Shown here: positions 6,142 through 10,386 of the stretch, piece after piece
Numbering within the stretch: the first letter of the stretch is position 1
Layout: the number at the start of each line of letters is the position of its first letter
Assembly (NCBI GenBank): GCA_023130215.1
Contig: JAGMAN010000033.1
Span: forward strand, 1-11,835
DNA: 11,835 nucleotides
From: a bacterium
Lineage (GTDB): Bacteria; NPL-UPA2; JAGMAN01
Direction: 5' to 3'
Notes under the pieces: generated by a model
What the model saw: only the letters and a program-made list of their open reading frames with translations
Told to the model about the DNA's origin: nothing
Databases searched by the model: none
Made by a program: the position numbers and the translations under genes

Positions 6142-6193
6142 TCCTTTAATTCTTTTCAATAACCAGTTTTCCCTTTATTTTCGTATGAGGGTA

Positions 6194-6202
6194 TGGTAAA
6201 AT
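6194..6202 (+). promoter_or_regulatory. Extended -10 promoter for a possibly leaderless transcript
   Basis: TGG-TAAAAT has an extended -10 with only a weak TTTATT at the -35 position 17 bp upstream. Six nucleotides separate the -10 box from the ATG at 6209, so transcription would start at or next to the start codon. No ribosome site is seen upstream of that ATG. Confidence 0.45.
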
Positions 6203-6208
6203 TGGGCC

Positions 6209-6283
6209 ATGAGAGCAATTACGCTTTTGACTGACTTTGGAATGAAAGATAGCTATGTGGGAGTGATGAGAGAGATGGGATGA
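6209..6283 (+). pseudogene. N-terminal stub of a DUF62 (SAM hydroxide adenosyltransferase) gene
   Basis: The 24-codon reading frame begins MRAITLLTDFGMKDSYVGVM, closely matching the N-terminus of DUF62 enzymes. These hydrolyse S-adenosylmethionine to adenosine and methionine, and fluorinases and chlorinases are relatives. The Asp of TDFG is a SAM-contacting position in the family. After VGVM the frame leaves the family consensus and stops at once, where a full gene would continue for about 240 residues. The stop overlaps the next gene's ATG as ATGA. It is most simply the remnant of a large internal deletion. It may now serve as an upstream cistron that feeds ribosomes to the small gene behind it, or it may be an assembly join. 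Confidence 0.65.
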
Positions 6284-6435
6284 GTGGAACCTTGAAGAAA
6301 TTATGGCAGAGAATAAGGTCGCTTCTCTCAAGCGGTGAGTTCCTCTGCGATACCTGTAAGTATGACTGGGGAAATGTCTGCCGTCGGCGGGAGAGGCCAA
6401 ACGCTACCCAGTGTCCCGACTATAAGAGAAGATAA
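6280..6435 (+). CDS. Small four-cysteine (zinc-ribbon-like) protein, 51 aa
   Basis: This protein has a basic amphipathic N-terminus (MSGTLKKLWQRIRSLL). A compact C-terminal domain follows, with C23-x2-C26, C34 and C45 in the order CDTCKYDWGNVC then ERPNATQCPDYKRR. Four cysteines in 23 residues suggest one zinc ion or a small iron-sulfur site. The internal RERPNATQCPDYK has the look of a conserved motif rather than random translation. Translation is probably coupled to the overlapping upstream stub (ATGA), and purine-rich GAGAGAG lies a few bases upstream. No function is known to me. The gene is short enough to be missed by standard length cut-offs. Confidence 0.65.
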   Translation: MSGTLKKLWQRIRSLLSSGEFLCDTCKYDWGNVCRRRERPNATQCPDYKRR

Positions 6436-6497: not shown

Positions 6498-6689
6498 ATG
6501 AAGAAGCTTATAATTTTTCTCCTCATTAGCTTTGTTCTCGCCTTTATTGTGATGGCTGGAATCGGTCAGGCTGAGGAGGAGAGAGAAGGGGATGAAGCTA
6601 AGGAAGAGGGCTATAAACTTACTCCCGAGGATAAACGGGTTCAGATTATCTCTATCTTGATATTAGTTATCCTGGTCATTGCTCTTTAG
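6498..6689 (+). CDS. Small secreted or membrane protein, 63 aa
   Basis: Residues 1-25 form a signal-peptide-like segment ending in GIGQA, a plausible signal peptidase I site. A very acidic linker follows (EEEREGDEAKEEG), and the last 15 or so residues form a hydrophobic tail (IISILILVILVIAL). The mature protein would be a short C-terminally anchored peptide facing the periplasm. If the signal is not cleaved, it would be a two-pass hairpin. AAGGAG stands 8 nt before the ATG. It lies 62 bp after the four-cysteine gene on the same strand, so the two may be co-transcribed. I recognise no family. Confidence 0.7.
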   Translation: MKKLIIFLLISFVLAFIVMAGIGQAEEEREGDEAKEEGYKLTPEDKRVQIISILILVILVIAL

Positions 6690-6940: not shown

Positions 6941-6967
6941 TTTAACATACGTGAGGGAAGATGTCAA
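6939..6967 (-). promoter_or_regulatory. Sigma-70 promoter of the DUF2065-like gene
   Basis: Consensus TTGACA (6962-6967) is followed after 17 bp by TAAACT (6939-6944), with TGT as an extended -10. The -35 box lies inside the first codons of the opposite-strand transglycosylase gene. The predicted start near 6932 leaves a 17-nt leader with AGGAGG. Confidence 0.7.
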
Positions 6968-9012
6968 AGATAATCAAGTGCCTCATCCTGATCCTTGTCT
7001 TCCTGGGTTCAGGTAGAGCCACGGCTCAAATGGCTGATGAGCATCTGGGGAGAGGATGGAAGCTGTTTCAGTGGGGCAAATACAGCCAGGCACAGAAAGA
7101 GTTCAGGAAAGCTGTCCGAAGCTACCCACTCCTGAGTGATTACAGTCAGTATTACTTAGCCAGTTGTTACAAGAAATCAAAGGACTGGAAACGAGCTATT
7201 AGAGAATATTATAAAGTGGTAAGGTCCTATCCTCAGAGCCTGAAGGCCCCTTACGCTCTATACCACATGGCTTCTATTCAGGCTGAGAGAGGTAGACACC
7301 GGAAAGCAGTAGTCAATTATGAGAAGCTCCTTGAAAACTATCCATCCATCTTCCCCTTGGACAGGATTTATTTCCTCCTGGGAGGGCAGTATGAGGCCTG
7401 CCGCTGCAGGAAAGAGGCAACTGCTCTATACACCAAGACAATGGAGAAGTTTCCAAGAAGCCCCTTTGCCTATCAGGCTCTTTTGAAGGTGGAGGAGCTA
7501 AAAACCTACCGACCCACTCCGAAAGAAGAGTATCAAGCAGGGCTGGTTCTTTATCATAACGGCAAGTACGAACAGGCCATTTCTAAGTTGAGAGAAGTTT
7601 TGTTGAGAAGAGCTTTATATCACTCCTTGGCCTCCCAGGCTCAGCATTTGATAGGAGACTGCTTTTATAAGAAGAAGGACTATCAGGAAGCAATAAGAGA
7701 GTATGAGAAACTGATAGCTAACTTCCCGCAGAGTGAGTTAGTTCCTGAAACAATCTATATGATAGCTCAAAGTTTTACCTCCCCGGGCCAGGAGGAGAAA
7801 GCTCTGGAGCGATATGAGGAACTGGTTAGCTCTCATCCCCGGAGTTCCTGGGCAGACGTCGCCATATTTGAGAAGGGTAAATTGCGTGAGAGGCTGGGTA
7901 ACCCCACCGGTAGTATAGAGGAGTATGGCAGAATAATATCCCATTATCCAAATAGCAATCTGAGGGATAAAGCGTACTGGCAGATGTCCAGGTGCCTGAT
8001 GAAATCAGGTGACCACTCCCTGGCTTCTGAGGCGCTCGTAAAGTTAATTGAGGAATATCCTGACCGGGAATTAGCCGGGGATAGTCAATACTGGCTGGGA
8101 AAATTAGAGGAGCGAATGGGTAACTACTCAGGAGCTCTTCAAGCTTACCAGCTCGTCAGGGATAGATTCCCTCACCATTTCTACTGCCGGAGAGCCGAAG
8201 AGAGGATAAGCTGGCTAAGAGATACCTTAGAGCTTAAAGAGGCAGAGAAAAAATCTCCAGTTTCAGCTCCCCGAATGAGGGAGCTACGGCTTTACTCCCA
8301 GCTTCCCCTTTCTCAAGAAGGGGACCTTAATTTCAGGAAAGGATTAGCTTTGATTAGGTTAGAGATGTACCAAGATGCCACCAGAGAGCTGAGAGTTAGT
8401 TTCAGGGAGAAAAAGAGAAGCTTGGAATTCTACTATAACCTGGCCTTCCTCTATAAGTTAGCTAATTTCTACCAACAATCTATTGAGCAGATAGAGATAG
8501 CCTCAAATAAAGTTGACATAGATGAGCTGCCAGGCGAACTCTTATCATTTCTCTACCCCATCCATTACCGGGAATATGTCAAAGAATATTCCCACAGATT
8601 AAACCTGGACCCTCTTCTCGTCCATGCCCTTATCAGAGAGGAAAGTAGATTCAACCCCCGGTCAGAATCCCGATCCAGAGCCCTGGGGCTTATGCAGATT
8701 CTTCCTTCAACCGGAGAATGGATATCTAAGAAAATTGGGGAGAAAGCATTTGAGGAAGGCAGTCTCTTCCAGCCCAAGCCGAATATTAAATTAGGAACCT
8801 GGTATTTAGCCCATCTCCTTGAGAGGTTTAATCAAAATCTCATCTTTGCTCTGGCTGCTTACAACGGCGGTCCAACTAATGTAACTAATTGGCTTAAGAG
8901 AAGCAGTGAAGACATAGATGAGTTTATTGAGGATATCCCCTTATCAGAGCCCAAGCGCTATGTAAAGAAGGTAATGGCCAGCTACGCCATCTATAAGCAA
9001 ATTTATAAATGA
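6961..9012 (+). CDS. Periplasmic soluble lytic murein transglycosylase (Slt70-type) with TPRs
   Basis: It cleaves the MurNAc-GlcNAc bond of peptidoglycan to give 1,6-anhydro ends. Of 683 residues, the first 22 are a signal peptide (cleavage likely at ATA|Q). Residues 28 to about 420 are roughly ten tetratricopeptide repeats, each with a YxxAxxxYxxxxxxYP pattern, and a further TPR-like pair lies near 455-515. The C-terminal SLT domain (about 545-683) holds catalytic E561 in EESRF, GLMQ at 576-579 and AYNGG at 633-637. The tandem TPR region is more regular than the superhelix of E. coli Slt70 and could dock partner proteins. GAGGGAAG lies directly before the ATG, and an in-frame stop (TGA) just upstream fixes the start. 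The 3' end overlaps the convergent PIN toxin frame by 10 bp. Confidence 0.95.
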   Translation: MSKIIKCLILILVFLGSGRATAQMADEHLGRGWKLFQWGKYSQAQKEFRKAVRSYPLLSDYSQYYLASCYKKSKDWKRAIREYYKVVRSYPQSLKAPYALYHMASIQAERGRHRKAVVNYEKLLENYPSIFPLDRIYFLLGGQYEACRCRKEATALYTKTMEKFPRSPFAYQALLKVEELKTYRPTPKEEYQAGLVLYHNGKYEQAISKLREVLLRRALYHSLASQAQHLIGDCFYKKKDYQEAIREYEKLIANFPQSELVPETIYMIAQSFTSPGQEEKALERYEELVSSHPRSSWADVAIFEKGKLRERLGNPTGSIEEYGRIISHYPNSNLRDKAYWQMSRCLMKSGDHSLASEALVKLIEEYPDRELAGDSQYWLGKLEERMGNYSGALQAYQLVRDRFPHHFYCRRAEERISWLRDTLELKEAEKKSPVSAPRMRELRLYSQLPLSQEGDLNFRKGLALIRLEMYQDATRELRVSFREKKRSLEFYYNLAFLYKLANFYQQSIEQIEIASNKVDIDELPGELLSFLYPIHYREYVKEYSHRLNLDPLLVHALIREESRFNPRSESRSRALGLMQILPSTGEWISKKIGEKAFEEGSLFQPKPNIKLGTWYLAHLLERFNQNLIFALAAYNGGPTNVTNWLKRSSEDIDEFIEDIPLSEPKRYVKKVMASYAIYKQIYK

Positions 9013-9383
9013 AAATTCACCGGATATGTTCCGCAGCAGATAAAGAATGGATCTAATAGATTTTCCGATTGGAGCCTGTTTGCCCGAAGGAGGCTTATCT
9101 CATCGGGGACGATAACCTCAAGTATGCTCATAATCTGGCTAATGTATGTTTCAACCTGCTCTTCATTATATTCCTTCTTGCGCCGGAGAAGATATCTCAG
9201 TTCAAGCAGAGTGGTCAGACAGGTTAGTCCTTTAATCTTCCTGGTCTCAACCATTCCAATTATCTTATGTGGAGCTTTCCAGAGTTCTCTGCCAGTGTCA
9301 GTTTCTCGCTCCTTGGTAAGCCAGTTAACTATGACATCTGTATCCAATATCACGGATGGGATAGATTCATTTGATCTTTCCAT
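9003..9383 (-). pseudogene. vapC: PIN-domain toxin (VapC-like), C-terminus disrupted
   Basis: VapC toxins are PIN-fold, Mg-dependent RNases that cut tRNA or rRNA until bound by the paired antitoxin. Here the first catalytic Asp (D14 in ILDTDV), the mid-domain Glu (E61 in TTLLELRYLL) and a later Asp (D111 in NLLDP) are present. After LLDP the reading frame turns into FFICCGTYPVNFHL and stops. The neighbouring frame reads HSLSAAEHIR, which fits the expected D-x-x-H-x-x-x-A segment, and then also stops. The usual final 20-30 residues with the fourth acidic residue are missing. The frame instead ends inside the transglycosylase gene. I read this as a frameshifted and truncated, probably inactive toxin. 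The start overlaps the antitoxin gene by 17 bp. Confidence 0.7.
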
Positions 9384-9552
9384 AGAGACTTGCTCTCAGC
9401 TCCTTGATAAATTGGGTGCTGGTCTTACCCCCGGGAATAATTCCCTTAAATTTACCCAGAAGTTCATCAGCAACCTTTTTCTTCCTGGGGATACAAGGCT
9501 TAACCTTGATCGTCTTGAGTGCCTGAACTGCTTCTTGAAGAGTTGATGACAT
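9367..9552 (-). CDS. Antitoxin partner of the PIN toxin (VapB-like), 61 aa
   Basis: This short basic protein lies immediately upstream of, and overlaps, the PIN toxin gene, the standard antitoxin position. Its C-terminal half (GIIPGGKTSTQFIKELRASLYGKI) looks like the extended toxin-binding tail of PIN-module antitoxins. The N-terminal STLQEAVQALKTI is probably a small dimer or DNA-binding part and shows no classic AbrB or RHH motif to me. The ATG has GGGAGGTGA upstream and a strong promoter 20-50 bp further back. If the toxin is dead, the antitoxin may persist as an orphan or could still neutralise related toxins. Assignment rests on context and the tail. Confidence 0.7.
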   Translation of the reverse strand: MSSTLQEAVQALKTIKVKPCIPRKKKVADELLGKFKGIIPGGKTSTQFIKELRASLYGKIK

Positions 9553-9883: not shown

Positions 9884-10168
9884 TTAATACACTTCCTCAT
9901 GGGTGCCAATTTCTATCAGTAGAATATCGTCCTCTTTTTGGTGCTGGCTCTTTACAAAATCAAATACTACTCGCAGGTTGTATCCAGCACTACAGGCCCA
10001 TGATCCTGATAATTCACCTTTAAGTTTATGTGTCTCTAATCGCGGAACAAAAGGATCTTTGGTCAGAGTCTTTAAAGTCTCCTCAATACCCTCCTTTAAA
10101 TCTGGATGCTTTTTTATTGTTCGTTTAAATGCCCTCTTAAAGGTTTTGCCCCAAATAAGTGTTCTCAT
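9884..10168 (-). CDS. RelE/ParE-family type II toxin (mRNA interferase-like)
   Basis: The 94-residue protein has the compact RelE fold signature: a basic N-terminal helix region (FKRAFKRTIKKHPDL), LETHKLKGELSGSWACSAGYNLRVVFDF in the centre, and a C-terminal ILLIEIGTHEEVY. The GTHxEVY end supplies the usual His/Tyr catalytic or rRNA-contact residues of the RelE/StbE-YafQ-like group, which cut mRNA on the ribosome. The length is normal and the frame is intact. Its ATG overlaps the antitoxin stop as ATGA, so toxin synthesis is coupled to antitoxin translation. Which mRNA codons it cuts cannot be told from sequence. Confidence 0.88.
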   Translation of the reverse strand: MRTLIWGKTFKRAFKRTIKKHPDLKEGIEETLKTLTKDPFVPRLETHKLKGELSGSWACSAGYNLRVVFDFVKSQHQKEDDILLIEIGTHEEVY

Positions 10169-10386
10169 TCTTCAGATAAATCTTTCATCAGTTCATTTGC
10201 CGTGCCTTCTTTAACTTCTCCCTTAGCATACTCTGCCCTTGCTTTCTTAATATTTTTTGCAAGCAGATCTCGTCTATGTTCTATTTGCCTGTGGCGAACA
10301 ATATCAATAAGATCCTCTTGCTGATACTCAGGCAATGATTCGATTACATCTAATGCTTCCTGGAATGTTGCGGCTTGCTTAGACAT
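10165..10386 (-). CDS. Antitoxin of the RelE-type module, 73 aa
   Basis: The protein begins TFQEALDVIESLPEYQQEDLIDIVRHRQIEHRR, a helical segment recurrent in antitoxins that accompany RelE/StbE toxins. It ends in a charged, probably disordered tail (KGEVKEGTANELMKDLSEE) that would wrap the toxin. Its N-terminus resembles that of the other antitoxin in this window (T-[LF]-QEA-[VL]). AGGGGG lies 8 nt before the ATG. The gene is second in its transcript if the 27-codon leader ORF is translated. No standard DNA-binding motif is obvious, so autoregulation is inferred only from the class. Confidence 0.85.
   Translation of the reverse strand: MSKQAATFQEALDVIESLPEYQQEDLIDIVRHRQIEHRRDLLAKNIKKARAEYAKGEVKEGTANELMKDLSEE

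Follow-up and report, generated by a model that had tools for sequence, protein, structure and literature searches.

What does it mean when the beginning of an enzyme gene stands, without the rest of the enzyme, directly in front of a gene for a small cysteine protein? This question is raised by a 24-codon frame in the window, the stretch of 11,835 nucleotides analysed here, which derives from a MAG of the NPL-UPA2 group (ca. 1 Mb in 136 contigs; G000). We compared the locus with two congeners (G001 and G002) and with nine phylum genomes including G000 itself. All three congener genomes are MAGs. Among the named public genomes carrying the cysteine protein locus, the label 'candidate division NPL-UPA2' is borne by the MAGs of the G002 contig and of Unc8, which is more distant; the G001 contig was deposited as 'Nitrospirota'. 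Unc8, an acetogen, has a genome of ca. 1 Mb and comes from a serpentinizing spring (PMC6305446). Based on our analysis, the frame is very probably the 5' remnant of a deleted DUF62 gene, an unexceptional scar left by a shrinking genome and not a new kind of system. This reading rests on homology, the intact gene of one sister, the independent deletion in a second sister and the widespread losses in G000 compared with G001.

A DUF62 start in front of a conserved cysteine protein gene

The features of the locus are collected in Table 1. On its own, the translated stub matched the Pfam profile SAM_HAT_N with 24.3 bits, missing the curated cut-off of 26.3 bits as expected, since only 18 of the 145 profile positions (1 to 18) are covered. 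Residues 1 to 21 are 90% identical to the intact DUF62 protein of a congener and the first 18 are conserved among the three species. The stub thus shares with the DUF62 family (PF01887; NCBIfam NF058624 and NF053629) the N-terminus, matched by its first 18 to 21 residues, and a full gene occupies the same place in a congener. Unlike members of this (R)-SAM hydrolase family, it lacks more than 90% of the protein (24 codons compared with 276 in G001) including complete N- and C-terminal domains, and is not a functional member. It is also the sole DUF62 match in its own genome (E 6.2e-4 in 1.01 Mb), and no intact copy was found elsewhere in this 90% complete assembly.

The stub and the cysteine protein gene have the ATGA at 6280-6283 in common, with the ATG of the latter at 6280-6282 and the TGA of the former at 6281-6283. 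By itself, such an overlap is unremarkable because chance often produces short upstream frames whose stop falls at a start codon, as seen in a deliberately loose scan that returned 82 candidates around 454 genes. The remarkable feature of the stub is its DUF62 homology and not the overlap. A preliminary description of this DNA had proposed both the DUF62 identity of the stub and its ATGA overlap with a tiny four-cysteine protein, and our searches and frame analysis bear out these assignments.

The conserved gene at the locus is the cysteine protein gene, whose family is spread over several phyla without a Pfam or NCBIfam model. Identity to the proteins of the two congeners is 96% and 88%, and the protein was detected in 21 of 290 sampled genomes, with homologues in named MAGs of Planctomycetota, Armatimonadetes and Hydrogenedentota. 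Its motif pattern (CDxC ... C ... RPNAxxCPxY) is invariant across eight sequences, and no family model in Pfam or NCBIfam was matched. Judging from its cysteines, one might guess at a small metal-binding protein. The predicted structure (mean pLDDT 51) was too poor to use, and a PDB profile search returned nothing credible (best E 0.32). For annotators, it is the cysteine protein and not the stub that marks the conserved gene. A supposed relative in Thermomicrobiales (L037) was rejected, as the match runs antisense in a leucine-biosynthesis-like gene and is without the cysteines of the family. An operon of DUF62 and cysteine protein genes across phyla was likewise rejected, as a DUF62 gene two genes upstream was seen in only one case, a Planctomycetota MAG.

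Further downstream, both G001 and the Unc8 MAG likewise have the TPR-SLT gene in this position. Rfam gave no match in the window. Elsewhere in the window, two toxin-antitoxin-like pairs are encoded on the minus strand (9003-9552 and 9884-10386), one with a PIN-domain protein, the other with a YafQ/ParE-like protein, and both with a small upstream gene. Positions 1-170 hold a repeat with nested inverted repeats, related pieces of which occur in L107, L076, L119 and L130 of G000.

Table 1. Features at the DUF62 stub locus, in window positions
Feature	Position	Strand	Basis
Putative retained DUF62 promoter, extended -10, predicted RNA start ~6209	6166..6208	+	~93% identical to G002 region before its DUF62 stub
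First ~20 codons of former DUF62 (SAM hydroxide adenosyltransferase / SAM hydrolase) gene	6209..6270	+	Pfam SAM_HAT_N E 2.8e-5; 90% nucleotide identity over 61 nt to intact G001 gene
Residual 24-codon frame MRAITLLTDFGMKDSYVGVMREMG and stop; TGA within ATG of next gene	6209..6283	+	ORF list
Deletion junction, exact point located only to this range; ~794 nt of the G001 DUF62 region lie here and are absent from G000; AAGGGA common to both G001 breakpoints	6266..6279	+	Alignment
51-aa four-cysteine protein gene (CDxC ... C ... RPNAxxCPxY)	6280..6435	+	Conserved in both congeners
63-aa small membrane protein, next gene	6498..6689	+	Conserved in both congeners
TPR + SLT lytic transglycosylase-like protein, shared synteny anchor	6961..9012	+	Pfam SLT E 1.1e-30

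Separate DUF62 losses in G000 and G002

The preliminary description had suggested, as one of two readings, a precise deletion of the enzyme body, and a search of relatives for a full DUF62 gene followed by the cysteine protein gene. The deletion is supported by G001 (L026, minus strand), in which this arrangement was found and where an intact orthologue of 276 aa occupies the syntenic position directly upstream of the same cysteine protein gene. The order there is DUF62 stop, ca. 35 nt, cysteine protein gene, 63-aa gene and TPR-SLT gene. G002 (L027) carries the same promoter and the same first 18 DUF62 codons, fused in frame to the last ca. 20 codons of the gene (MRAITLLTDFGVKDSYVG joined to ENAHQALGIGRGGKVVVEMGQDNGLS and a stop), which amounts to an in-frame internal deletion. 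An ABC-ATPase gene overlaps with this fused frame, and a radical-SAM gene and the cysteine protein gene come next, in that order. This radical-SAM gene could be detected in neither G000 nor G001. Of the ABC ATPase gene, whole in G002, G001 keeps the first 8 codons (MASVRLKG) within a 10-codon stub (MASVRLKGMA and a stop) whose TGA again overlaps the ATG of the cysteine protein gene as ATGA. The start of the cysteine protein gene thus overlaps an upstream frame in all three congeners, by ATGA in G000 and G001 and by the end of the radical-SAM gene in G002. These arrangements point to an ancestral order of DUF62, ABC ATPase, radical SAM and cysteine protein genes, of which a different part would have been lost in each species.

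The left breakpoint in G002 lies within ca. 7 nt of that in G000. Descent of the G000 deletion from the G002 deletion was rejected, since the window retains native DUF62 sequence (TGATGA) past the G002 breakpoint, and the two losses are thus independent. Loss of the same gene in two sisters from almost the same left breakpoint is unlike typical deletional remnants and speaks against the scar reading, being more of a coincidence than a purely random scar would predict. A full DUF62 gene is present in only two of the eight other phylum genomes, which indicates that the gene is dispensable.

As we envisage it, the DUF62 gene would once have headed a small operon in front of the cysteine protein gene. 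A deletion of ca. 0.8 kb in a G001-like arrangement, or of ca. 3 kb should the ABC-transporter and radical-SAM genes known from G002 still have been in place, would have removed the sequence from about DUF62 codon 20 to just before the start of the cysteine protein gene, perhaps at a short sequence common to both sides. What remains are the promoter and the first codons, leaving the cysteine protein gene to be read from the old DUF62 promoter, with translation that would begin through re-initiation at the ATGA overlap or else directly. The activity of the retained promoter, any translation of the stub and the mode of translation of the cysteine protein gene are inferences here.

Gene loss in the sampled G000 genome

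In a sampled comparison, 517 kb of G000 (about half of the genome) were set against 446 kb of G001 (about a third). Within ca. 105 kb of alignment, mostly between these two genomes, 15 length differences of at least 60 nt were missing in G000 compared with four in G001, and all seven differences of at least 500 nt were missing in G000; only where a remnant is left can the direction of change be taken as certain, and remnant-free differences could be gains in G001. Genes were named by reading the sequences by eye, without a family search, in case of the kinase, PilT, polymerase, glycosyltransferase and transporter genes. In G001 a PfkB-like kinase has 412 aa (L160, minus strand), whereas G000 has a 65-codon in-frame remnant of it (L061, 2488-2685) made up of three in-frame pieces, with the start and ribosome site kept. 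Of a PilT-like gene, G000 retains roughly the final 13 codons, which are attached to the end of a DNA polymerase III alpha-like gene. Other genes, including a glycosyltransferase-like and a transporter-like one, are absent from G000 with no clear remnant, as are two spacers of ca. 180 nt, so that the genes beside these spacers abut or overlap. Across this comparison, what is left of the lost genes is a 5', internal or 3' piece, or nothing.

At the DUF62 junction the shared run AAGGGA is 6 nt long, and runs of at least 6 nt arose in 1.5% of random trials. Shared runs are also found at the kinase junction (CAAGGATA) and the PilT junction (GAATC). Some deletion junctions share 5 to 8 nt and others do not, and a uniform microhomology mechanism was rejected as only two to three of seven junctions exceed chance.

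The DUF62 stub resembles gene remnants of deletional genome reduction in that part of an ORF is left, its promoter is kept beside a downstream gene, many other deletions occurred in the same genome and short sequences are shared at some of the junctions. Taken together, the loss at this locus appears to be one of many deletions in a shrinking genome of the NPL-UPA2 group. The locus offers a clear example, resolved by relatives, of gene loss in a candidate-phylum genome of ca. 1 Mb, in which breakpoints are situated near the ends of genes, the following gene retains the promoter and some of the remnants are still open. In the sampled sequences we also observed a frameshift after about residue 181 in a DNA polymerase III beta-like gene of G001 (L173, minus strand from about 9254), either a sequencing error or real; the gene is intact in G000 (L120).

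Promoter, translation and alternative readings of the stub

Upstream of the stub, the extended -10 element TATGGTAAAAT was located (TG 6194-6195, TAAAAT 6197-6202), an 11-mer unique to this site in ca. 517 kb of G000. A sigma-70 scan did not list the site, which is explained by the absence of a good -35. With six bases between the hexamer and the ATG, as the preliminary description had stated, the spacing fits, and an RNA starting at ca. 6209 would plausibly be leaderless. The leaderless proposal itself holds only in part. The promoter region differs from that of G002 at ca. 3 of 41 nt, with sequence further upstream unconserved, but G002 has ca. 31 nt more between the -10 and the ATG and leaderlessness is therefore not conserved. 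Further, no clear leaderless peak was seen in 517 kb of G000, where 277 of 393 genes have an SD-like match at some start compared with 13% of single random positions.

These observations bear on the strongest alternative, namely that selection has kept the stub as a translated leader on which ribosomes load at a leaderless AUG and then re-initiate at the ATGA for the cysteine protein. We regard this as unlikely. The extended -10 at leaderless spacing, its conservation with G002 in a region where sequence upstream of the promoter is not conserved, the overlapped start in three of three congeners and the 18 to 20 codons kept in both DUF62 deletions all favour such a role. In reporter work, translational coupling was found to depend on short overlaps (4-nt ATGA), with support for re-initiation (PMC10666635). 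The geometry is the same here, with an upstream TGA overlapping the next ATG, but the frame in front is a remnant of 24 codons, for which coupling would be a prediction from the sequence. On the other side, the stub is about as similar between G000 and G002 (51/54 nt identical) as the functional cysteine protein gene is (144/156), the same promoter is followed by a longer leader in G002 and no leaderless peak was seen in the 517 kb of G000. Overlapping frames are also common by chance, and the remnants elsewhere in G000 are not confined to 5' ends, as comparable scars are 3', internal or absent. A ribosome-loading role of the stub is thus possible but would not be needed to explain the locus.

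Extended to the genus, the same idea would hold that when the first gene of an operon is lost, the promoter and ca. 18 to 20 codons are kept in a frame overlapping the next gene, with erosion stopping at the minimal translation-initiation region because the stub serves as the ribosome entry. The repeated cases would be DUF62 (twice) and the ABC ATPase stub of G001. We consider this generalization improbable too. If it were true that several stubs act as ribosome entry sites, gene starts could outlive their genes.

A false junction in a genome that carries an intact DUF62 gene at this point is a very unlikely explanation. An assembly artefact is conceivable in a MAG split into 136 contigs, given that G001 has the gene intact, but no exact repeat at the junction exceeds 13 nt within the sampled genome, which would be too short for a k-mer assembler to have joined the two sides without spanning reads. 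Other pieces of DUF62 were not found in the assembly, and the gene was lost separately in G002. Moreover, the left side of the junction matches the promoter and stub of G002 while the right side matches both congeners, with shared downstream synteny. That the frame encodes a functional short peptide merely resembling DUF62 is barely credible. The frame is open with a start and stop and has 18 residues conserved in three species, but these residues form the N-terminus of the full G001 enzyme, at the same position and with the same gene next, and the G002 frame continues into the DUF62 C-terminus.

In place of the DUF62 promoter, G001 (L026, minus strand, about 548-652) has a ca. 100-nt element with inverted ends (AGGGACAGC...GCTGTCCCT) that looks like a small repeat or mobile element.
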